Shown here in pieces: positions 723 through 12,745 of a stretch of 12,745 bases of DNA. Source of the DNA: Chryseobacterium sp. UBA6632 (GTDB taxonomy: Bacteria; Bacteroidota; Bacteroidia; Flavobacteriales; Weeksellaceae); contig DKLU01000195.1 in NCBI GenBank assembly GCA_002455915.1, forward strand, positions 10,927 to 23,671, in the 5' to 3' direction. The number at the start of each line of letters is the position of its first letter. Positions within the stretch are counted from its first letter, which is position 1. Under the pieces are notes generated by a model, which saw only the letters and a program-made list of their open reading frames with translations, was not told where the DNA came from and did no database searches. The position numbers and the translations under genes are program-made.

Positions 723-1430
723 TTAGCCTTTTGCTTTTTCATCTGTAAAAAACTGAAAACCTTCTTTTCTTTCGATAAGTTGTAAAGGATATAATTTAGG
801 ATTATATTCCCCGTTTAAGACTTCATTTAAAGCGTGCTTTTTAGACTCTCCGAAAGCAACCACTAAAATATTTTCTGCTTTATTAATAATTGGAGCCGTT
901 AAAGTGATTCTAAACATTTCCTGAGGCTTCAGATAATAGGCATCAACCCATTTTTCTTTTTCATCTAAAATAGCTTCACCAGGGAATAACGAAGCCGTGT
1001 GACCGTCATCTCCCATTCCTAAAAGAATAAAATCAAAAATACCTTCTTCACCAAGAATATTTTTAATATCCTGTTCGTATTCTTTAGCATAATCTTCAGG
1101 CTCTATACCATCCTTATACATCGGAAAAATATGATCTTTACTCACCGGAACTTTATTAAAAAGAGCTTCAAAAGTCATTTTAGCATTGCTTTTCTCATCA
1201 TTCAGAGAAACCCATCTTTCATCGACCCAGAAGAAATAAATTTTACCCCAGTTTATTTTTTGCGAATATTCTTCAGTTGCTAATAAATTGAAAATAGCTT
1301 TTGGAGAAGAACCTCCGCTTAATGCTACAACAAATTTATCATGCTTTTGAATTGCCTTTTCTGAAAGTTCAACAAAAGTATCTGCCGCTTTTTTATATAA
1401 TGTATCTAAATTATCAAATACTGTAATCAT
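723..1430 (-). CDS. pgl: 6-phosphogluconolactonase
   Basis: Hydrolyses 6-phospho-D-glucono-1,5-lactone to 6-phosphogluconate, the second step of the oxidative pentose phosphate pathway, in the cytosol. The 235-aa length fits the DevB/Pgl type, which shares its fold with glucosamine-6-phosphate deaminase, rather than the beta-propeller YbhE type. Visible motifs are the phosphate-binding LSGGSSPK at 37-44, DERWV at 70-74, and the signature GMGDDGHTASLFPG at 138-151, whose His144 is the expected catalytic base. It is last in gnd-zwf-pgl, with only 22 nt after the zwf stop, so it probably depends on the upstream promoter. The complete set of motifs and its position beside zwf make the deaminase alternative unlikely. 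Confidence 0.96.
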   Translation of the reverse strand: MITVFDNLDTLYKKAADTFVELSEKAIQKHDKFVVALSGGSSPKAIFNLLATEEYSQKINWGKIYFFWVDERWVSLNDEKSNAKMTFEALFNKVPVSKDHIFPMYKDGIEPEDYAKEYEQDIKNILGEEGIFDFILLGMGDDGHTASLFPGEAILDEKEKWVDAYYLKPQEMFRITLTAPIINKAENILVVAFGESKKHALNEVLNGEYNPKLYPLQLIERKEGFQFFTDEKAKG

Positions 1431-1452
1431 TTTTATTGATTTAATTAAAATT

Positions 1453-2934
1453 TTAAACCCAATTATGCCCTTGTCTTTCCGTTAAAGCAAAACTATCCTG
1501 TGGCCCCCAGCTTCCCGCTTCATAATTCGGGAAAGAAGAATCTTTGGTATTTTCCCAAGCTTCCTGAATTGTTTTCACAACATCCCAAGCCTCTTCCACC
1601 TGATCAGAACGCATAAACAGTGTAAGATCTCCCAAAAGCGCATCTAGCAACAGCGTCTCATAAGCTTCCGGAGTATCTTCCTGACAGGCAAAATAATCGA
1701 AAATCATTTCTACAGGTTTTAAATCTAATGAAAGACCAGGCATTTTAGTCATAAACTGCAACCTGATATCCATCAAAGGCTGAATATTGATAATCAACCG
1801 ATTAGCAGATAAAAGCTGAGAACTTTCTGAAAAAGTAGAATGCGGAAGCGGTTTGAACTGAATCGTAATATAAGAATGTTTTTCTTTCATTTTCTTACCT
1901 GTACGCACATAAAATGGCACATTTTGCCATCTCTCGTTATCCAGATAGAATTTTACGGCAGCAAAAGTTTCTGTATTAGAATCGGGAGCAATCCCATCTT
2001 CCTGACGATAACCTTTAGCTTTCACTCCATTTACTGTTCCTTTTCCGTACTGACCTCTCACGGCATAATGATCTACTTTATCAGGTGAAATTCTGCGAAT
2101 AGCTTTCAAAACATCAACTTTGCGATCTCTAATTTCGCCAGACTCCAACGAAGCAGGAGGCTCCATGGCAACCATACACAAAATCTGAAGCAAATGGTTC
2201 TGAATCATGTCTCGTAAAGCTCCTGTCTGCTCATAAAAGCTTCCTCTGGTTTCTACACCGACCTCTTCAGCAACGGTAATTTGCACAGATTCAATATGTT
2301 CATGATCCCATAAAGGTTCAAAAATAGAATTCCCGAATCTGAAAGCTAAAATATTCTGCACCGTTTCTTTACCTAAATAATGATCGATACGGTAAATTTG
2401 CTCTTCCTCAAACGTTTCTGCTAAAAGACTGTTTAATTCGATAGCCGATTGTTTATTATGACCAAATGGCTTCTCAATAATAATACGATCTTTCTGAGGA
2501 TCAGATGCTAACGATGTATTTTTAATATGATTTGAAATCGTGGAAACAAAATTCGGACCTATAGAAAGATAGAACAACCTGTTCCCTCTTGTACCGTAAA
2601 CTTTGTCGAATTTCTCCAGCTTTTCATGTAAATTCTTGTAAGAAGCTTCTTCGTCCAACTGATGTTGAAAATACGTGATATGGGCCTGAAAACCAGCCCA
2701 ATCTTCTGAAGTTATTTTTTTTCTTGAAAAGTTTTTAAGATTATCTTTAATATAATTTTTAAAATCTTCATCAGTATTTTCTGCCCTTCCTAATGCCACA
2801 ATATTGAAGCCTTTAGGCATTCTGCCATCGATATATAAATTATAAAATGCCGGAAAAAGTTTTCTTTTTGCCAGATCTCCTGTAGCTCCAAAAATAATAA
2901 TGGTTGTAGGCTGCAAGATTTTATTGTCGTTCAT
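1453..2934 (-). CDS. zwf: Glucose-6-phosphate 1-dehydrogenase
   Basis: Oxidises glucose-6-phosphate to 6-phosphogluconolactone with NAD(P)+, the committed step of the oxidative pentose phosphate pathway. At 493 aa it is the normal bacterial length. The nucleotide-binding GATGDLAKRK lies at 16-25, and Arg50 in LGRAE sits where Leuconostoc G6PD has the arginine that contacts the NADP 2'-phosphate. EKPFG is at 154-158. The substrate-site signature RIDHYLGKE is at 182-190 (His185), and the catalytic base His247 is in RDMIQNHLLQ, with the same 62-residue spacing as His178/His240 of the Leuconostoc enzyme. VPFYVRTGKKM lies in the C-terminal beta domain. It starts 13 nt after the gnd stop and is followed 22 nt later by pgl, so the three genes are almost certainly one transcript. 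No frameshift or missing catalytic residue was seen. Confidence 0.97.
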   Translation of the reverse strand: MNDNKILQPTTIIIFGATGDLAKRKLFPAFYNLYIDGRMPKGFNIVALGRAENTDEDFKNYIKDNLKNFSRKKITSEDWAGFQAHITYFQHQLDEEASYKNLHEKLEKFDKVYGTRGNRLFYLSIGPNFVSTISNHIKNTSLASDPQKDRIIIEKPFGHNKQSAIELNSLLAETFEEEQIYRIDHYLGKETVQNILAFRFGNSIFEPLWDHEHIESVQITVAEEVGVETRGSFYEQTGALRDMIQNHLLQILCMVAMEPPASLESGEIRDRKVDVLKAIRRISPDKVDHYAVRGQYGKGTVNGVKAKGYRQEDGIAPDSNTETFAAVKFYLDNERWQNVPFYVRTGKKMKEKHSYITIQFKPLPHSTFSESSQLLSANRLIINIQPLMDIRLQFMTKMPGLSLDLKPVEMIFDYFACQEDTPEAYETLLLDALLGDLTLFMRSDQVEEAWDVVKTIQEAWENTKDSSFPNYEAGSWGPQDSFALTERQGHNWV

Positions 2935-2947
2935 TTTTTTCCGAATT

Positions 2948-4366
2948 TTAATTATTTACGTTTTGCCAAATAGTATGGAAAACCCCTTCTCTGTCTGCTC
3001 TTTGGTAAGTATGTGCTCCAAAATAATCACGCTGAGCCTGAATTAAATTCACCGGCAGAGATTCTGTAGTATAAGCATCAAAATATCCTAAAGCCGTCTG
3101 AATTCCTAAGCTTGAAATACCGTTCGAAACAGCAAAAGAAGCCGTATTTCTTAATGATTGTACTTTTGATTTAACAATATCTGAAATTTCTTTATCAAGC
3201 AAGATATTCGATAAATTAGGATCCTGAGTATATGCAGAATAGAATTTCTCTAACAATACAGAGCGAATGATACAACCGCCTCTCCAGATTTTTACCACAT
3301 CTTTCAACGGAATATCAAAACCATATTCATTAGAAGCTTTTACCAATAAAGCTAAGCCTTGCGCATAACTAATTAATGTAGATAAATAAAGTGCTTCACC
3401 TACTTCTTTAATGAATAACTCTACATTTTCAGGTGTAGAAATTTCGTTTTTAGCATATAATTGAGAAGCTTTTACCCTTTCATCTTTATAAGCCGATAAA
3501 ATTCTTGAAGTCACCGCAATATCAATAGTTGGGATAGAAACTCCGATTTCCATCGCCTGTTCAGAAGTCCATTTTCCTGTACCTTTTGCTCCGGCTTTAT
3601 CTAAAATTTTGTCAACAAGATATCCTTCTTTCAAATCATCTTTTTGCTGAAAAATATCTCTTGTGATTTCAATTAAGAATGAATTCATTTCGCCATTATT
3701 CCATTCTTTGAAAACTTCGTATAGTTGATCGTTATTTAAATTAGCTCCTTTTTTAAGCAAATCATACGCCTCACTTATCAATTGCATGATGGCATATTCA
3801 ATTCCGTTATGCACCATTTTCACATAGTTTCCAGCAGAACCTTTGCCCATATAAGCTGTACAAGCCTCTCCTTCTACTTTTGCCGAAATAGCTTCCAGCA
3901 TCGGCTGAAGAAGATTAAACGCTTCCTGATCTCCACCCGGCATAATGCTCGGTCCTCTTCTAGCGCCACTTTCACCTCCGGAAACTCCAATTCCCATGAA
4001 ATGTAATTTTTTTGATGCTAAATCAGCAATACGTCTGTCGGTATCTTTAAAATAAGAATTTCCTGCATCAACCACGATATCACCTTCGCTTAAAAGAGGT
4101 GTAATATTTCCCAAAACAGCATCTACAGGCTTTCCTGCGGGCACCATAAGAATTATTTTTCTGGGAGTTTCTAAAGCGGCTACAAATTCTTCTAAAGAAC
4201 CCATACCTTTTACTTTCATTTCTGAAGTAGCTTCGTCACCAAGTTCTTTTATTTTTGCAGCATCGAGATCAAATCCAGCGATTGAAAAGCCGTGATCGGC
4301 TATATTATAAAGAAGGTTACGCCCCATGACACCGAGCCCCACCATACCGTAGTTATATCTTTCCAT
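2948..4366 (-). CDS. gnd: 6-phosphogluconate dehydrogenase (decarboxylating)
   Basis: Oxidatively decarboxylates 6-phosphogluconate to ribulose-5-phosphate, CO2 and reduced coenzyme. At 472 aa it is the long, dimeric form. The Rossmann motif GLGVMG is at 10-15; the substrate site VSGGESGARRGPSIMPGG is at 128-145; catalytic Lys183, with His186, Asn187 and Glu190, lies in KMVHNGIE; GAKGTGKWTS and WRGGCIIRS are present; and the C-terminal tail GAHTYQR...GVFHT that reaches the partner subunit is complete. Oddities: residues 33-35 after beta-strand 2 are D-L-D where NADP enzymes usually have N-R-S/T; MVPAG replaces the common MVKAG; Asn180 replaces a usual His; and Ala192-Ile193 replaces Gly-Asp. 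First gene of gnd-zwf-pgl. The start has no Shine-Dalgarno sequence. The family call is firm; the coenzyme is not. Confidence 0.96.
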   Translation of the reverse strand: MERYNYGMVGLGVMGRNLLYNIADHGFSIAGFDLDAAKIKELGDEATSEMKVKGMGSLEEFVAALETPRKIILMVPAGKPVDAVLGNITPLLSEGDIVVDAGNSYFKDTDRRIADLASKKLHFMGIGVSGGESGARRGPSIMPGGDQEAFNLLQPMLEAISAKVEGEACTAYMGKGSAGNYVKMVHNGIEYAIMQLISEAYDLLKKGANLNNDQLYEVFKEWNNGEMNSFLIEITRDIFQQKDDLKEGYLVDKILDKAGAKGTGKWTSEQAMEIGVSIPTIDIAVTSRILSAYKDERVKASQLYAKNEISTPENVELFIKEVGEALYLSTLISYAQGLALLVKASNEYGFDIPLKDVVKIWRGGCIIRSVLLEKFYSAYTQDPNLSNILLDKEISDIVKSKVQSLRNTASFAVSNGISSLGIQTALGYFDAYTTESLPVNLIQAQRDYFGAHTYQRADREGVFHTIWQNVNN

Positions 4367-5354: not shown

Positions 5355-7109
5355 TCAAAAACTATAATTATATCCCACAGTGCAAGTCATTTCATTAATA
5401 TTCTGATTTTCAACTTCCTGATCTGTCTTTCTAAACATCTGAATAAAATTAAGATCGAAACTATGCTTTTTCCACGGCATATAATTACCGCCCAATCTAA
5501 AATTCATTACGTTAATGTTTGCTGTTGAACTTCCTGAATGATTATAAGATGCCCCAAAATTCGTCTTCAACTTATCTTCTTTCAGAAAAGCTTTAGTCAC
5601 CGTTAAAGCCGGACCCCAAATATTTGAAATTTGAGAAGCTGCATAGGTATGTGTATAATTCATAGAGGCGGCAACATTCATTTTCTTTTCAGGAAATCCT
5701 AAGATATAATTTACGTTTGCGTTATGAAATCTTGACAAACCGCCTTTTCTTACAATCCCATTCTCTCTGTTTACCATTTCATTCAGAGAATAATTGATAT
5801 TAATATTCTGTACCTTCTCTTTACTGCTTGAAATAACATAGTTCACATTAATATTGGTATTTTGTGAAATCTGTTTATAATCTATTGAATCTTTGGGTTG
5901 CTGAATCATTAACGGATTATTGTTGATTGTATTGAACTGATTCAGCTGTTTGTTCGTAAACATGGTAAAATTGGAATAACTTGCCGTAATCATTAACTTT
6001 TCAGATGCTTTCAAGTTGGCATTCACAGCACCTACCCAACGGCTGGTTTGCTTAAACTTTTGATTATCCAAATTATCTCTTTGCCTTCCTATATTGGCTG
6101 AAAGTGCCAACTTATCTTTCAATAAAGTAAAAGAAGAATTTAATGTAATATTCTCCAAATCGTTATTAAAATAATAAGCTCCCAATGTTCTGTATCCAGG
6201 ATCTATTCGCTCATACCTCACACCTACCATTCCTTTTTTCAGTTTTAAGTTTACCCCTCCGTTATAGGCAGAATAACTTTCCATAGAAGCATTAGGCGAA
6301 AGAAATTTTGCCGCAATCCCTTTTTTCTGTGCCCCTTCGCCAGATGATCTTAAATCATTAACCAAACCTGTATTTGCATATTCTCCAAATACTTCCAAAT
6401 TTTTATCAATCATGAAGCTTCCAGTCATTGAAAGGACTAGATTTTCTTGCGGTAATACGTCTTTAGAATCAGGAGCCACAGAAAGGGAACCCAAATTATC
6501 TTTGGCATAAAACCCTATTAATCCTAATTTGTATCTTTCCTTTTCCCATCGTAGATGAGCTCCGTAACCCATTCTTTTATAAGCAGGAATTGTATTAGGA
6601 TTACCGTCATCTTCCACCGCTTTATTAAGCCTTCCTGTCATCACTGCAACTTTTAGGGGAATATTGGGTGTAAGCTCTACCCCAGCTCCCGTAAATAACA
6701 ATCCATTAAAAGTATACGGAGAAAACGTCATATTGGCATCACCAATATAAGCCTTTATCCATTTGTATTTTGGAGCAATACTTATTCTGTTAAATTTAAA
6801 TGGAACCTGATATCCTAGCTGACTTCCCTGATTCGTAAGGCTATATGATACAGGCATAGACCATCTATACAATCCAAGATTTAGATTTCCGTTCAAAAAG
6901 TAGGTAAAAGGAGCCCTTCCGCTATATACATTGGAACTATAAAAAACGGAATTCGCAGAAACACCTCCACTTATTTTAAAGGGATTTTTCTTAAGCTCTT
7001 CCATTGTTCTTTTGCCTATATTTTCCAGATCAACTTCCTGTGCATTAGCCAACGTACAAGCAGAGGTGAAAAATACAAAAGCAATACTTCTTACATAAGA
7101 TTTTTTCAT
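5355..7109 (-). CDS. Outer-membrane beta-barrel protein, last gene of the surface operon
   Basis: The 584-aa product has an N-terminal signal peptide (residues 1-23, cleavage most likely ANA|QEVD). Almost the whole mature chain is alternating hydrophobic/polar beta-strands with aromatic girdles and Asn-rich turns, for example LNGNLNLGLYRWSMPVSYSL near 72-91 and INVNYVISSSKEKVQNININ in the C-terminal third. It ends in TVGYNYSF, and a terminal Phe is the usual recognition signal for barrel insertion by BAM. A short helical stretch (about 26-41) precedes the first strand. Cys18 within the signal gives a weak lipobox-like TSAC, but the ANA|Q site is better. It is not a TonB-dependent transporter (no plug or TonB box seen), and it is longer than the roughly 300-aa SprF/PorP partners of T9SS cargo. 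It follows the PKD lipoprotein gene by 11 bp. Likely role, by inference: membrane anchor or export partner of the proteins encoded upstream. Confidence 0.8.
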   Translation of the reverse strand: MKKSYVRSIAFVFFTSACTLANAQEVDLENIGKRTMEELKKNPFKISGGVSANSVFYSSNVYSGRAPFTYFLNGNLNLGLYRWSMPVSYSLTNQGSQLGYQVPFKFNRISIAPKYKWIKAYIGDANMTFSPYTFNGLLFTGAGVELTPNIPLKVAVMTGRLNKAVEDDGNPNTIPAYKRMGYGAHLRWEKERYKLGLIGFYAKDNLGSLSVAPDSKDVLPQENLVLSMTGSFMIDKNLEVFGEYANTGLVNDLRSSGEGAQKKGIAAKFLSPNASMESYSAYNGGVNLKLKKGMVGVRYERIDPGYRTLGAYYFNNDLENITLNSSFTLLKDKLALSANIGRQRDNLDNQKFKQTSRWVGAVNANLKASEKLMITASYSNFTMFTNKQLNQFNTINNNPLMIQQPKDSIDYKQISQNTNINVNYVISSSKEKVQNININYSLNEMVNRENGIVRKGGLSRFHNANVNYILGFPEKKMNVAASMNYTHTYAASQISNIWGPALTVTKAFLKEDKLKTNFGASYNHSGSSTANINVMNFRLGGNYMPWKKHSFDLNFIQMFRKTDQEVENQNINEMTCTVGYNYSF

Positions 7110-7120
7110 AGAAGAAATTT

Positions 7121-8479
7121 TTAAGGTTGCTTTTGTATTTTAATGTCCACGATGATATAAGAGCTTGAGCCATTAGCTACAAATTCTTTAATCTTTACCG
7201 CTCCTTTTCTTCCGTCTGATGTCTGAAATAGAGTTACTCTTGGTACAACAGAATTGCTAAAGGGTGACTTTCCTGCGTTTGTTTCGATAATATTAATAGA
7301 ATTAAAATCATCTCCTGAATTTACAGCATCAAAACCTGATGAAGAAAGCTGTATCCCAACCAATTCCTGTGAATTGATAATTTTTGAATGAGTCGCATTT
7401 GGAATGGCTAAAAATCCGCTATTCTGTACCTCATCTGGAGACACAAACTGATTATAAATAAAGGAAGAATTCAACCCGAAAAAGGCAAAATCAATTTTAG
7501 AACCATTTGTTGCATTGACTTCATTCTGCTTAACCACAGTTCCCAATTCAGATGAAAAGAAACATCCTATGGTAGAACCGGCACTATTAATCCCTAATTT
7601 AACATCAGAAAAAGATAAAAGATTAGCATCCGGCAACACAACAACTTGTTTTTGCAACGTTTTGGTTTCTTTATCATTAATGGCTTTCAAAACAATAGTA
7701 TATGTCCCTGCTGCTGGCAAAGTTATATCTGGATTAGTGACTGATGAAACTGCCGGATTTGCCCCAACAATGCTCCATTCATACGAAAAAGCATTTGTTG
7801 AAAGGTTATTTAAATGTAATGTTACCGGAGCCTGATAATCGTTATCAATAGGATCTACTGTCCAATTAAAATCTACCGTCATCGCCGGCTTAATATTGAT
7901 AGTCTTTTGAGTAGAATACGTTTCCAGACCATTAGAAATTGTCAACTTAATTATATGATCTCCGGGAGTTGTAAATACAACATCCGGATTCTGAGCATTA
8001 GAAGTTGTGGGATTACCTCCTTCAAATTCCCAAAGATACTGGGTGGCACCTAATGATTTATCAATCATGTGTAAGGTAACAGGTGAAATATCACTTCCCT
8101 GCATTTGCCAGTCAAAATCTACATTCATGGCTGCATCTGCTTTTACCTCTATTATTTTCTCATCTACATTTCCATCCTTATTGGATGCCTTTAATTTAAT
8201 TTTATAAATTCCGGCAGAAGCATAGGTTACAGGTTGTGGATTTTTTTCTGTCGAACTTGTCACCGAAGCTCCGTCAAATGACCAGTCATACGTTTCTGCC
8301 CCGGTAGATTTGTTTGTAATTTCTACTTTTACAGGAACCGAATAATCATCATTTACCACTTTAATGCTAAAGTCTGCCTTTACCGGAATGCTTTCCTCCA
8401 CTGCACATGCATTAAAAATAAAAGTAATAGCAATGATGAGGAAAAGGGATGCAATTTTTATGTTTTTAAAAAAATTCAT
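7121..8479 (-). CDS. Lipoprotein with three PKD domains and an unassigned C-terminal domain
   Basis: The 452-aa product has a lipoprotein signal peptide: a basic start, a hydrophobic core (10-22) and the lipobox FNAC with Cys25. Mature residues +2 to +6 are AVEES, and the Glu-Glu pair at +4/+5 resembles Bacteroidota lipoprotein export signals that send lipoproteins to the cell surface. Three PKD-type beta-sandwich domains lie at about 34-113, 118-197 and 201-282. Each has a T-x-x-Y-x-W or S-Y-x-W core (YDWSFDG, YLWEFEG, YEWSIVG), an NP pair and a closing G-x-Y/H-x-I-x-L-x-x-S/I-N strand. Residues 285-452 form a different Ser/Asn-rich beta domain that I cannot name, ending in SSYIIVDIKIQKQP. 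There is no T9SS sorting domain. The gene lies 28 bp after the SprB-like gene and 11 bp before the barrel gene. Probable role, by inference: a surface lipoprotein bridging the secreted protein and the barrel. Confidence 0.82.
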   Translation of the reverse strand: MNFFKNIKIASLFLIIAITFIFNACAVEESIPVKADFSIKVVNDDYSVPVKVEITNKSTGAETYDWSFDGASVTSSTEKNPQPVTYASAGIYKIKLKASNKDGNVDEKIIEVKADAAMNVDFDWQMQGSDISPVTLHMIDKSLGATQYLWEFEGGNPTTSNAQNPDVVFTTPGDHIIKLTISNGLETYSTQKTINIKPAMTVDFNWTVDPIDNDYQAPVTLHLNNLSTNAFSYEWSIVGANPAVSSVTNPDITLPAAGTYTIVLKAINDKETKTLQKQVVVLPDANLLSFSDVKLGINSAGSTIGCFFSSELGTVVKQNEVNATNGSKIDFAFFGLNSSFIYNQFVSPDEVQNSGFLAIPNATHSKIINSQELVGIQLSSSGFDAVNSGDDFNSINIIETNAGKSPFSNSVVPRVTLFQTSDGRKGAVKIKEFVANGSSSYIIVDIKIQKQP

Positions 8480-8507
8480 GGTGTTCTATTTGTGTTTGTG
8501 ATTGTTA

Positions 8508-11500
8508 TTATTGTACAAGCATTTTCTTAACGAGTACCTCTCCTCCTGTTTCTACGATAATTAGGTATGAACCAGCTGGAAGTGAGGTATTATACGGAAT
8601 CGTAAAATAAGTAGATGGAGTCATTTTAACCGCCGGATAAGCTTCATGTGATACCATATCTATAATTCTTACGTTGACAATGGCTGCCTTGTCTAGACCT
8701 ACCAATATTTTAAACACTCCATTATTAGGGTTAGGAAGTATCGTAAACTCTCTTATGTTGGAGGCTTTTACAGGATTTAAATTCACTCCTGCTGTATTTT
8801 CTTCCACAATTACTTTTTTGTAGAAAGTTTTTTCGCATTCTCCTTGGGTTCCCTTTAGTCCTATTTCATAAGATCCTAATTGGGAAAATTTTAATTCTAA
8901 AAATTCATCCGTTTTATTCATAACCTGAATATCCGGAGTATCCGGAACAATCCACTCCACAGTTTGAGGCTTGGTAGGCGATGTATTCACCAGTACCACA
9001 GTTGCTTCCCTGTAAGCATGAGTCGTTAACATAAACTGAGGATTTAATATCTCTGAAGAATTTTTAACAACAACAGTATCCGTAGCCGTACAACCTTTTG
9101 AATCAGTGATTAAGACAGTGTAGCTACCTGCTACAGAAAGTATTATGGATGAAGCTGTTGAAATAATATTTCCAGATTGGTCTTTCCATTGGTATGTCGC
9201 TCCAGGATCATTTATAGCCACATTATACGTATGGCTATCTCCAAGACAAAGCGTAATGTCTGAACCTAAATCAACTGTAAGCTGTGCAGGATCTGTTAAT
9301 GTATAGTTTCTGAAAACACTGCATCCGTTGTCATCTGTAACGGTAACGGTATACGTTCCTGATGGAATATTTAGATTGCTTTCTCCAGTAACTCCGTTTG
9401 ACCATGTAACATTATAAGGTGCTTTTCCACCTGAAATATCCACTTTTATTTCGCCATTATTAGCTCCGAAGCATATAGGATTCTGTACAGAAATATCATC
9501 AATAATCAATTGATTCGGTCCCTGAATCTGAACACTTCCGCTTACTTTACAGTTTTTAGCATCGTTTACCAAAACAAAATAATTTCCTGCCGAAAGTCCT
9601 GTAACTGTCGGAGTCGTATCATTGGTATTCCATTGATAAGAATAGGCTCCTGTTCCTCCGGTGGCGGCCACAGAAACCTGTCCGCTGTTTTGGCTGTAGC
9701 ATGCGATTGTATTTGCAGAAAGCGTTATTGCCAAAGTAGCAGGAAACCCAAAAGTATATTCTGCATCAGTTGTATTATTGTTGACATCTTTAATAAGAAC
9801 CTTATATGTTCCTGTTGTCAGATTTTCCAGAGTAGCCTGAGTGGCCCCTGAAATATTCTGAAAAATACCATTATTTGATTTTTGCCATTGATAAGTATAT
9901 GTTCCGACACCACCTGTAACGGCAGCTTTCAAAATTCCGTCTTCTGCTTCATCAGGAACTCCATTGCTATCTAAATCTGCTTTATACTGATAATCATTGG
10001 CTATATTGCAAGAAATCTGCTTCTGAATATTTATTGTTACAGCTAGAGGATCCGGCTGAGACATAATAAATTCCTGAGAGATAATTCCGCAATTCCCTAA
10101 CTGGCTTGTAGCGCTGCTATAATTTTTATCTTTTACCGTTAAATAATAATTTCCAGCTGCCAAGCCATCAAGTTTAATGGTAAAAGGATTATTAACAGCA
10201 TCTGTAGTTATTCCGGCTGTGATTACCGTTCCAGTCGGGCTATCTTTTCTCCATTCAAAATTATAAGAACCACCTGTATTAGGGGTTCCTCCCACTACTC
10301 TCACCGAAATATATCCGTTGCTTAGTCCATAACCTGTAGGCTGTGAAACTTCAATTTCACTGGAAGGGAGATCAATGGCTTCAGCGGGTTGCGTAATAGT
10401 GACTGTAATTTCTTTTTCCGTTCCGTTTTCTTTAGCTACACAAAGATTAGAATCTCTTACTTTAATTTTATAAGTACCTGCTGCAAGGTTTGATATTTGA
10501 GAGTTATTTCCACTAGTAAAATTAGTCCAATCTACAAGCAACTGTCCATCTTTTACCACATGATACTGGAACTGATTTTGTCCTCCCGATGCCGTCAGAT
10601 TAATAATTCCATCATTTCCCTGATAGCAATACACATTGGTCTGGGAAGTCATGGAAAAAGTAACCGGAGTAGGTTTCGTAATTTCAAAACTAATGGTATG
10701 CGAAGGACTGTCGGTATAGGTAGCATTATTCTCATAAGTTCCTAATAAATCCAGCTTATAAGTTCCGGCAGGAAGGTCTTGTAAAGTATAGGAAGTACTG
10801 GTTTGCAAGTCGCCAGTAATATCCTGATTGATAACTGCAGCACCTGTAACGGTATTGATTAAGGATAATTTTAATGTTTCATTGGTCAATAAAGTTCTGT
10901 CGAAATTTAAAGTCACTGATCCATCCGAGGTATCTGAACATTTTGTCGGTGAAACTGTACTGGAAAGAATATGGGGAGCAGACTGAATAATCGTTAACGG
11001 AAGCGGTGTTGAAATTGATTGATATGTTCCGTTATTAAGACAAGATACTGCTCTAAAATAGATATTGTCTCCTACATATTGAAGATATCCTGCGCCTAAT
11101 AAATCCTTAGCAGAAAGCGTTAATATATGTAAATTATATAAAGTAGAAGGAACGTCCGTCCAGCTGATATTATCTAAACTATACTGATAATTATAGCTTG
11201 AAGCTACGAAACCATCATTATCGGTTATTGTAATTTTATCATCTGATGGTAAGTAAGTATTTGTTACGGCAGCTCCATTTACGATATTTTTTGAAGTTAA
11301 TGAATGTACCGGGAAAAGTGTCGCTCTTACTGTATAGGCAATAGATGTTGCATTATTATCTCCTTCATCACTGACTTGGCTCGTATTACAATCTGAAACA
11401 GAAATAGTTCTGTCAAAATCTTCATCATCACCATTACAGCCACCAATTGTAGCTCTTCTTTTTGCATATCCCTGCCCTCTTACAGATACAATTTTTTTTG

Positions 11501-11723
11501 CTCTGGTATATGATAAATCTACATCAAACCATTGTGACTGTCCGTTATAAACTTCTTCGCTGGTACCGTCAGAAAAGTTAAGAGTGATTTTACTCCAATA
11601 TTCACAGACTTTTCGCCCACCGCCATCAGCATGAAATCTGAAATAGACATTCACTTTATATTTATCCTGAGCAAAAGAGAATATTCCGCTCAATAGAAAT
11701 AACAGTAATAAAAATTTTTTCAT
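8508..11723 (-). CDS. T9SS-secreted surface protein with SprB-like repeats
   Basis: The 1071-aa product has a signal peptide (MKKFLLLLFLLSGIFSFA, cleavage after 18, mature QDKYKV). Residues 20-250 are an N-terminal region I cannot assign; it has Cys40, Cys96 and Cys112, a GGG turn and an acidic patch DDEDFD (99-104). About six SprB-like modules follow (255-812), then an Ig-like module (813-887; DITLCLGDSHTY, ATYQW, AGSYTVLITDSKGC) and a PKD-like module (893-973). The C-terminus (993-1071) is a T9SS type A sorting domain with ILPNPNNG at 995-1002, VRIIDM, LPAGSYLIIVE and a final VKKMLVQ strand. Family knowledge: such proteins cross the outer membrane by T9SS, lose the CTD and are released or attached to lipopolysaccharide. 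A Ca2+-loop-like insertion lies at 583-595. It is 14 bp after the FN3 gene. Adhesin or matrix roles are typical of such proteins, but the ligand is unknown. Confidence 0.9.
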   Translation of the reverse strand: MKKFLLLLFLLSGIFSFAQDKYKVNVYFRFHADGGGRKVCEYWSKITLNFSDGTSEEVYNGQSQWFDVDLSYTRAKKIVSVRGQGYAKRRATIGGCNGDDEDFDRTISVSDCNTSQVSDEGDNNATSIAYTVRATLFPVHSLTSKNIVNGAAVTNTYLPSDDKITITDNDGFVASSYNYQYSLDNISWTDVPSTLYNLHILTLSAKDLLGAGYLQYVGDNIYFRAVSCLNNGTYQSISTPLPLTIIQSAPHILSSTVSPTKCSDTSDGSVTLNFDRTLLTNETLKLSLINTVTGAAVINQDITGDLQTSTSYTLQDLPAGTYKLDLLGTYENNATYTDSPSHTISFEITKPTPVTFSMTSQTNVYCYQGNDGIINLTASGGQNQFQYHVVKDGQLLVDWTNFTSGNNSQISNLAAGTYKIKVRDSNLCVAKENGTEKEITVTITQPAEAIDLPSSEIEVSQPTGYGLSNGYISVRVVGGTPNTGGSYNFEWRKDSPTGTVITAGITTDAVNNPFTIKLDGLAAGNYYLTVKDKNYSSATSQLGNCGIISQEFIMSQPDPLAVTINIQKQISCNIANDYQYKADLDSNGVPDEAEDGILKAAVTGGVGTYTYQWQKSNNGIFQNISGATQATLENLTTGTYKVLIKDVNNNTTDAEYTFGFPATLAITLSANTIACYSQNSGQVSVAATGGTGAYSYQWNTNDTTPTVTGLSAGNYFVLVNDAKNCKVSGSVQIQGPNQLIIDDISVQNPICFGANNGEIKVDISGGKAPYNVTWSNGVTGESNLNIPSGTYTVTVTDDNGCSVFRNYTLTDPAQLTVDLGSDITLCLGDSHTYNVAINDPGATYQWKDQSGNIISTASSIILSVAGSYTVLITDSKGCTATDTVVVKNSSEILNPQFMLTTHAYREATVVLVNTSPTKPQTVEWIVPDTPDIQVMNKTDEFLELKFSQLGSYEIGLKGTQGECEKTFYKKVIVEENTAGVNLNPVKASNIREFTILPNPNNGVFKILVGLDKAAIVNVRIIDMVSHEAYPAVKMTPSTYFTIPYNTSLPAGSYLIIVETGGEVLVKKMLVQ
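9288..10961 (-). repeat. Array of about six SprB-like modules within the T9SS cargo gene
   Basis: Modules of 70-105 residues begin at about residues 255, 357, 452, 560, 664 and 740. The shared pattern is a Cys near the start, G-x-I/V-x-V strands, (G)GTGxYxYxW, L-x-x-G-T/N-Y-x-V/I-x-V-x-D, and usually a closing N-x-C. The last two (664-735 and 740-812) are the most canonical: GGTGAYSYQWNTNDTTPTVTG and SNGVTGESNLNIPSGTYTV-type cores. The first two are degenerate. They diverge too far at the DNA level for recent duplication to be visible by eye. Confidence 0.75.
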
Positions 11724-11737
11724 AGTATTTTGTGTGT

Positions 11738-12745
11738 TTAATATTCAATTGTGATTTTTTCAGTTTTAGCAAGTTGGTTGCTCTTTAGCATCGGCTTGAT
11801 CAGATACGTATAGGAATTGCTTACCTGAACCGATTTATCTTCGAGGAAATTCTGAGCTCCATTAAGTGTTCCCCACATGGTTGGCTTTTCAGTTCCTTTT
11901 TGACGATACACCATAATCTCACCAACATCTTTCCCGTTTATTTTCCACTGAAGTTCAATTTGCTTTTTATTTCTGTTGGCTGCACCTGAAAGATTGGTAA
12001 GGATAGAGAGTGCCTCTATTTTACTACTTCTCAGCGTCATTTCCTGAGATTTGTCGGACTTCAATTTACTTTTATCAATGGCCAATAAATAATAAGTATA
12101 CCTTTTATCTGCTTCAACCTCTTTATCTGTAAATGTATAATTGGGTTGAATATCTTTTGTTTCATAAATTACTTTCCAGCTTTTATCAGCATCATCTTTC
12201 GCCTGACGGAATAATTGATGAATCATCACATCTTCACTTTGGCTTCGCATCCAGTTGATAGTAATTTTACCATCATCTTGCAGTTTATACTCTGTGAAAA
12301 CCGGCGTTTGAGGTTTCACCTTATCAGGCTTTTCAAGTTCCAAAATAATAGATGGTTTTGATTGATTTTTCCTTCTGTCCGTAGCTGTTACATAATAATA
12401 AACCTTTGAATTCAGGTTTTCCAACACCACTTTATCCTCAAAATGATTTTTTGTAATGGCCTGTGGAGTCACACGAACCAGTTCATCTCCTTTTTGAATT
12501 CCCCTGAAAATATGATAACCTTCGAGGTCTTTTTCAGTGTTTGCTTTCCATTTTAGATGTACCACACCTAGCGAATCTATTTTTCCTTCAAACTGTACCG
12601 GCGTTTCCGGAGGTGTGATGTCATTGGGTTGCGCTAAGACAGAAAAAGATTCTCTTTTATCTCCCGCTTTACCAATCGCCTGTATTTTATAATAATTAGA
12701 GGGCGCCAGACTTTTTGTAATAATACTTCTTGTAGTTACAGGAAG
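11738..12745 (-). CDS. Fibronectin type III repeat protein, 5' end missing
   Basis: The frame stays open from the stop at 11738 to the window edge, giving 335 visible residues of a larger protein. The GTG at 12563-12565 is an internal valine, not a start. The visible part holds the tail of one FN3-type domain (residues 1-38, with SNYYKIQAIGKAGDK) and three full ones: about 45-140 (VVHLKWKANTEKDLEGYHIF, then YYYVTATDRRKNQS), 145-240 (KITINWMRSQSEDVMIHQLF, then YTYYLLAIDKSKLKSD) and 243-335 (QIELQWKINGKDVGEIMVY, then SYTYLIKPM). It ends in TEKITIEY with no T9SS sorting domain, so it is not a CTD-bearing cargo. It is the first visible gene of the surface operon, 14 bp upstream of the SprB-like gene. 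FN3 arrays usually act as spacers or binding modules; the lost N-terminus would show how it is exported. Confidence 0.85.
   Translation of the reverse strand, partial: LPVTTRSIITKSLAPSNYYKIQAIGKAGDKRESFSVLAQPNDITPPETPVQFEGKIDSLGVVHLKWKANTEKDLEGYHIFRGIQKGDELVRVTPQAITKNHFEDKVVLENLNSKVYYYVTATDRRKNQSKPSIILELEKPDKVKPQTPVFTEYKLQDDGKITINWMRSQSEDVMIHQLFRQAKDDADKSWKVIYETKDIQPNYTFTDKEVEADKRYTYYLLAIDKSKLKSDKSQEMTLRSSKIEALSILTNLSGAANRNKKQIELQWKINGKDVGEIMVYRQKGTEKPTMWGTLNGAQNFLEDKSVQVSNSYTYLIKPMLKSNQLAKTEKITIEY

Follow-up and report, generated by a model that had tools for sequence, protein, structure and literature searches.

A four-gene surface-protein cluster in Chryseobacterium is probably the downstream half of a TANFOR polymorphic-toxin operon

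Results

Four genes encoding envelope proteins

The stretch of DNA analysed here (the window) comprises 12,745 nucleotides of Chryseobacterium sp. UBA6632 (assembly GCA_002455915.1, contig DKLU01000195.1, positions 10,927 to 23,671), and contains a cluster of genes for an FN3 protein, a SprB-repeat protein, a lipoprotein and a putative outer-membrane barrel. As proposed below, this cluster is very probably the downstream half of an operon for a TANFOR polymorphic toxin. In the list of open reading frames, the four genes lie on the minus strand and run from 11738..12745 towards 5355..7109 with gaps of 14, 28 and 11 bp, exactly the layout described in an earlier reading of the DNA letters (the original prediction). 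That reading had also proposed a single probable operon, which is supported, yet the four genes make up only the downstream half of a longer operon in relatives. The features are listed below, with the basis for each in brackets.

5355..7109, minus strand: outer-membrane beta barrel, 584 amino acids (aa), signal peptide by eye, last gene of the operon (open reading frame and AlphaFold2 model)
7121..8479, minus strand: lipoprotein, 452 aa, with lipobox Cys25, three PKD domains and an unnamed C-terminal domain at about residues 287-450 (Pfam, alignment, model)
8508..11723, minus strand: SprB-repeat protein, 1071 aa, signal peptide by eye, type A sorting domain of the type IX secretion system (T9SS) (PF13573, PF18962, TIGR04183)
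8511..8738, minus strand: type A T9SS C-terminal sorting domain, residues 996-1071 of the SprB-repeat protein (TIGR04183)
11738..12745, minus strand: FN3 protein, C-terminal 335 aa of about 700, start beyond the right edge of the window (open reading frame, orthologs)

The 452-aa protein contains three PKD stretches (Pfam, E 7.9e-18) and its lipobox Cys25 is invariant across 17 aligned sequences, in line with its earlier description as a triple-PKD lipoprotein. In its predicted structure (predicted local distance difference test score, pLDDT, 85) the C-terminal domain has a DUF4466-like fold, similar to that of the Parabacteroides merdae protein 4ei0 at 12% identity; the title of the 4ei0 entry gives a DUF family and no function. 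The 1071-aa protein, previously called an SprB-like T9SS cargo with a type A C-terminal domain (CTD), proved to be just that: five stretches match SprB repeats (PF13573, E 1.7e-26), and its sorting domain scores 42.3 bits against TIGR04183 (cut-off 23) and also matches PF18962 (E 9.7e-9). The FN3 label, on the other hand, failed on the truncated piece in the window (335 aa; best Pfam E 0.13; one NCBIfam match at E 1.1e-4, far under the cut-off) and was recovered through the full ortholog at locus L001, which matches fn3 in Pfam at E 3.6e-8. Orthologs at L001, L003 and L006 are 695-705 aa long, with starts that look like signal peptides by eye, and the export route of this protein, for which the original prediction had no proposal, is therefore settled at least as far as Sec. 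The view that all four products are envelope or extracellular proteins linked to the T9SS is thus supported at the level of prediction.

A predicted barrel of about 25 strands

AlphaFold2 modelled the 584-aa protein as a beta barrel of about 25 strands (pLDDT 83, predicted TM-score 0.71), which bears out the earlier call of an outer-membrane barrel. It matched no Pfam family at E≤1 and no PADLOC model at E≤0.1, and its single NCBIfam match (E 0.086) was far under the cut-off. When the model was searched with Foldseek, MtrB ranked first and ushers covered a larger share of the model, while TonB receptors were also among the matches. Three relatives of the barrel (P0026, P0034 and P0068) carry the source label "TonB-dependent receptor", a label without Pfam support from the window's copy and probably a misnaming. 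Both the label and the Foldseek matches would fit a nutrient or TonB-dependent receptor that merely travels with the operon, but we consider this very improbable: there was no plug or receptor match in Pfam at E≤1, MtrB and the ushers are the better structural matches, and the pairing with TANFOR described below is constant. Longer barrel frames, of about 815-848 aa (about 230 aa more than that in the window), were observed at L093-L101 (genomes G218, G331, G238, G261, G037, G041, G214, G327 and G198).

The longer operon in relatives

Searching with the barrel in one genome per species yielded 19 loci, of which 17 could be assessed, L015 and L019 being cut by contig ends. The order FN3-SprB-lipoprotein-barrel was kept in 13 of the 17, i.e., intact in 12 (from Chryseobacterium, Bergeyella and one Flavobacteriales metagenome-assembled genome) and with broken frames in L012. 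At Chryseobacterium-type loci the barrels are 78-89% identical to that of the window. Adjacency of the four genes, which the original prediction had suggested checking, therefore holds in these 13 loci but not in four from Flavobacteriaceae (L013, L014, L017 and L018), where the lipoprotein-barrel pair alone remains adjacent.

In Chryseobacterium and Bergeyella the operon reads, 5' to 3', a giant protein of about 1,565 aa, a TANFOR protein (about 1,150-1,950 aa), small genes, FN3, SprB/CTD, lipoprotein and barrel, and spans 20-26 kb where both ends could be read. No credible Pfam family was found for the giant protein. In Flavobacterium the parts are permuted around the toxin gene; in F. hercynium, for example, the order is SprB/CTD-TANFOR-small genes-lipoprotein-barrel-giant-FN3-SprB/CTD-TANFOR.

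Several further arrangements were seen. In F. hercynium (L018, L052 and L053) a single contig holds two consecutive TANFOR modules, both of which include lipoprotein, barrel and giant; the second TANFOR frame has only 482 aa. A family of about 470 aa, whose start resembles a signal peptide, separates the small genes from FN3 at L001 (1700-3100), L006, L007 and L016, with weaker relatives at L093 and L094; the L001 copy matched no Pfam family at E≤0.01. At L095-L098, SprB-repeat proteins of about 2,130-2,220 aa stand immediately ahead of the barrel, followed by TANFOR. Bergeyella zoohelcum has, at L047 (G011, C1:1241300-1260000) and about 320 kb from its main operon, another TANFOR gene, accompanied by small genes and by masked stretches that look transposase-like by eye.

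TANFOR proteins with variable C-termini

TIGR02542, the TANFOR family model, was matched in all 16 relatives' genomes searched (those of the 19 loci other than L015, L017 and L019), in every case under the curated cut-off, with a best E per genome of 6.0e-8 to 6.7e-6. The match shared the contig and strand of the barrel in 14 of the 16, about 10-19 kb upstream. In G011 a linked TANFOR gene was seen on reading L059 together with L011, the TIGR02542 match itself lying elsewhere, and in G014 the match and the barrel are on separate contigs.

In a set of ten TANFOR proteins, drawn from loci of Chryseobacterium, Bergeyella and UBA1937, the other nine were compared in 100-aa stretches with that of L037, gaps being counted as mismatches. 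Mean identity was 69-92% per stretch up to residue 900 and 7-13% past residue 1500; the short L042 protein diverges from residue 500. Thirteen C-termini, whole or partial, were searched against Pfam. Two matches exceeded the cut-off, i.e., EndoU in L037 and an AHH nuclease in L041, the latter with an Imm11 gene behind it. Under the cut-off were CdiA-CT RNase A in L042 (26.4 bits, cut-off 27) and ART in L038 and L040. By sequence, the TANFOR proteins of relatives are thus polymorphic toxins, with a conserved head, a variable C-terminus and immunity genes.

The constant partner of the barrel

To a fixed sample of 395 Bacteroidota genomes we applied profiles for the barrel (A1) and the TANFOR head (A2), with E-values calculated per genome; at most three candidate places per genome were scored for A1 and five for A2, and misses are possible. 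The barrel was matched in 77 genomes at E≤0.001, or 72 after very weak ones were dropped (G054, G077, G116, G138 and G191, whose sole match had E 2e-4 to 8e-4); a second weak match in G029 and repeat fragments of frames were also removed before counting. The TANFOR head was found in at least 120 of the 395 genomes, and in at least 90 at E≤1e-20, the 72 barrel genomes all being among the latter. TANFOR lay within 25 kb of at least 82 of the 89 barrel matches, always on the same strand, and downstream in 59 of these 82. The probability of the barrel-TANFOR overlap arising by chance, 2.6e-62, is inflated by shared ancestry and by the make-up of A2, and we therefore relied instead on the independent TIGR02542, which matched 13 genomes, 12 of them barrel-positive (P 6.7e-9). 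None of those TIGR02542 matches was over the curated cut-off; set against the genomes reached by A2 at E≤1e-20, this indicates that TANFOR proteins are probably much under-annotated.

Forty barrel loci were examined in detail. In 29, the gene immediately downstream of the barrel, on its own strand, is tagged as TANFOR or giant (≥25 bits); in seven more it is untagged, with a TANFOR head located by A2 at 32-666 bp from the barrel match. Among the remaining four, L116 carries the fused gene directly upstream, and in L092, L104 and L129 no such gene adjoins the barrel. TANFOR head and giant form one open frame in seven of the 40.

The other components were sought in the 72 barrel genomes. The FN3 family (profile A5) was matched in all of them at E≤0.001, some weakly, and a match of >100 bits lay within 25 kb of 66 of the 89 barrel matches, always on the same strand (rows above 100 bits at G174:C41, G331:C1 near 2.6 Mb, G265:C1:1459063 and G283:C7 were left out; the count is unaffected). 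The giant was found in 40 genomes. For the lipoprotein there was some match in 47, full length in only five (G001, G013, G214, G218 and G331), the rest being PKD stretches. The pattern is best read as a core of three components, the barrel, TANFOR and FN3; the giant is often there as well, or fused, and the lipoprotein is an addition in lineages near that of the window. Judged from these profiles, the four genes together are not what is most widely conserved, and the barrel's constant partner is TANFOR.

These counts bear on the possibility that the four genes are an adhesion assembly that is independent of the toxin and merely shares its operon. This would be consistent with the order conserved in 13 of the 17 assessable relatives, with the envelope location predicted for all four products, with the conservation of the four genes (61-92% identity) while toxin C-termini vary, and with two distant TANFOR proteins that have no Pfam toxin domain. 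However, the full lipoprotein accompanies the barrel in five of 72 genomes and TANFOR does so in 72 of 72, and in Flavobacterium it is around the toxin gene that the order is permuted; we regard such an assembly as unlikely. The self-contained surface assembly of the original prediction likewise gives way to half of a longer TANFOR operon. Two findings that it had named as counting against it were in part obtained: the barrel mostly occurs without a full-length lipoprotein, and the FN3/SprB/CTD/PKD neighbourhood is that reported for the TANFOR toxins (PMC7073777).

Association with the T9SS

The T9SS component domain SprA_N occurs in 303 of the 395 genomes and, when the lists were compared by eye, in all 77 with any barrel match; for the 72 strict barrel genomes the chance probability is 5e-10, with shared ancestry uncorrected. 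This association agrees with a need for the T9SS, without thereby showing that the barrel or TANFOR passes through it, and it may merely mirror phylogeny.

The main rival to our interpretation starts from here: the TANFOR toxin would be an ordinary T9SS passenger, exported by way of SprA, with the SprB-repeat protein or some other signal as its carrier, with the barrel acting after export as a PorV- or PorP/SprF-like anchor or shuttle. Export by the T9SS was proposed for TANFOR toxins by Jana et al. (PMC7073777), and the SprA_N distribution and the type A tail on the SprB-repeat protein are both as this explanation would have it. The model for such an anchor or shuttle is provided by PorP/SprF partners (PMC12618676, PMC12635249), which are often encoded beside their substrates, two substrates having been shown to need theirs (PMC12618676). 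However, neither Pfam nor NCBIfam matched the barrel to PorP/SprF, and the SprA association may reflect phylogeny alone. For type A tails, use of PorV has been reported (PMC12618676), and a private shuttle for the SprB-repeat protein is therefore not expected. On balance, simple T9SS export, in which the barrel would serve as anchor or shuttle, appears the less probable account, though a substantial contender.

Genes to the left of the operon

Genes at window positions 723-4366 read by eye as pgl, zwf and gnd, and a glyoxalase-family gene lies at 190-603.

Discussion

We conclude that the four genes are very probably the downstream half of a TANFOR polymorphic-toxin operon; for the whole explanation, i.e., this identity plus the surface working proposed below, we estimate a probability of about 0.6. 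Directly from sequence it can be read that the genes are laid out as in an operon, that the proteins have starts resembling signal peptides, and that a T9SS tail and a lipobox are present; also that the toxin varies at its end, that at least one toxin is backed by an immunity family, and that barrel and TANFOR are close partners. Going upstream to the right of the window, one would expect first immunity-type genes, then a TANFOR toxin (about 1,150-1,950 aa) and then a giant (about 1,565 aa).

We suggest that all products would reach the periplasm by Sec, as their signal peptides by eye would allow, and that the SprB-repeat protein would then be exported and anchored by the T9SS through its type A tail, as in the known family. 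The barrel would be a dedicated partner of the TANFOR head, carrying or holding a toxin-giant complex at the surface, a role suggested because the same-strand pairing is constant, TANFOR-giant fusions occur and the predicted barrel is large. The giant and FN3 proteins may build the surface body, with the FN3 protein, SprB-repeat protein and PKD lipoprotein as an outer stalk or brace. On contact, the variable C-terminal toxin would kill non-immune neighbours. That the barrel is the outer-membrane partner of TANFOR seems likely from the gene pairing; that it is the actual conduit, and not an anchor or T9SS shuttle, is rather doubtful.

Several points weigh against this interpretation. The TANFOR gene lies outside the window, its presence in this strain being deduced from relatives. 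A2 is partly circular for adjacency, barrel loci of the same sample having supplied 22 of its 34 rows, while TIGR02542 by itself reaches just 13 of 395 genomes; and 18 of 90 strong TANFOR genomes, among the matches listed, have no barrel match. The FN3, giant and lipoprotein profiles were run on the 72 barrel genomes alone, which gives no background rate, and A5 was built wholly from barrel loci; for these three, therefore, it is adjacency and not co-occurrence that speaks. Only two of the 13 C-termini were over the Pfam cut-off; seven (L013, L039, L043, L044, L046, L051 and L059) had no toxin-type Pfam match at E≤0.01, and that of L045 had one weak match of ambiguous meaning. In two distant genomes, TANFOR proteins of about 4,000 aa with an FN3 gene after them have no Pfam toxin domain, and the system may therefore not always be a weapon. 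Finally, the likeness of the modelled fold to MtrB and ushers shows no function.

The same two distant proteins hint at a pre-weapon state of the system. A broader scheme, which we offer only tentatively and consider unlikely as it stands, is that Bacteroidota have, in barrel and TANFOR, a two-partner route dedicated to export or display, in which an usher- or MtrB-like barrel passes the TANFOR head and the T9SS serves accessory surface parts alone. An older surface-megaprotein system would have been made into a toxin launcher in Chryseobacterium, Flavobacterium and relatives by swappable warheads on the TANFOR head. The exit route of TANFOR toxins was left open in the account of Jana et al. 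(PMC7073777), and a barrel family paired with TANFOR in 72 of 72 genomes is a concrete candidate, one that makes the question testable by single-gene deletions. The A2 profile, for its part, raises TANFOR-type heads from 13 to at least 90 of the 395 genomes.

Comparison with known systems

The locus resembles SprB/SprF and the PorP/SprF shuttles in having SprB repeats, a T9SS tail and a barrel in the same operon. It differs in its type A tail (TIGR04183) instead of type B (TIGR04131), which the original prediction had recognized, and in its barrel of about 25 predicted strands without a PorP/SprF match in Pfam or NCBIfam, whose constant partner is TANFOR.

An MtrB-type barrel has 26 strands, and the window's barrel is like it, and like the chaperone-usher pores FimD and PapC, in predicted size and overall fold. 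Identity in the alignments is only 11-12%, however, with no family match (for MtrB/PioB, none in Pfam at E≤1), and none of the genes noted at the loci was for a haem protein, chaperone or pilin, although no search was aimed at them. CdiB/CdiA two-partner secretion likewise pairs an outer-membrane barrel with a large polymorphic toxin, and one TANFOR C-terminus, that of L042, resembles the CdiA-CT RNase A family. A CdiB/TpsB transporter consists of POTRA domains and a barrel of its own family, whereas the barrel studied here matches neither POTRA nor the transporter family in Pfam at E≤1.

The closest likeness is to the TANFOR toxins of Bacteroidetes described by Jana, Salomon and Bosis in 2020 (PMC7073777). 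In that paper one TANFOR toxin domain is a DNase with an identified immunity protein, toxicity on expression in E. coli is shown for the TANFOR toxin domain BaCT, and SprB, Fn3, PKD and T9SS tail domains are enriched near TANFOR genes. Shared with these are SprB, PKD and a T9SS tail in the window, fn3 through the L001 ortholog, and the TANFOR head, variable toxin C-terminus and downstream immunity genes at the relatives' loci. The published toxins come from genomes with a T9SS, and SprA_N occurs in every sample genome with a barrel match. The terms "barrel", "lipoprotein", "porin" and "TonB" are absent from the main text of PMC7073777, supplements aside, and exact TANFOR phrases retrieved that paper alone from the open-access literature, a body that excludes preprints and most subscription papers; among the titles listed there on the T9SS with polymorphic toxins or immunity proteins, no further paper dealt with the system. 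Within the same coverage, supplements again aside, neither the barrel partner nor TANFOR-giant fusions were found in print. What our results add to the published picture is a barrel family as constant partner, an FN3 family usually nearby, a giant often present or fused, and heads spread more widely than TIGR02542 shows. The toxin class and its SprB, FN3, PKD and CTD neighbours were thus already known, while the constant outer-membrane barrel partner is, apparently, reported here for the first time.

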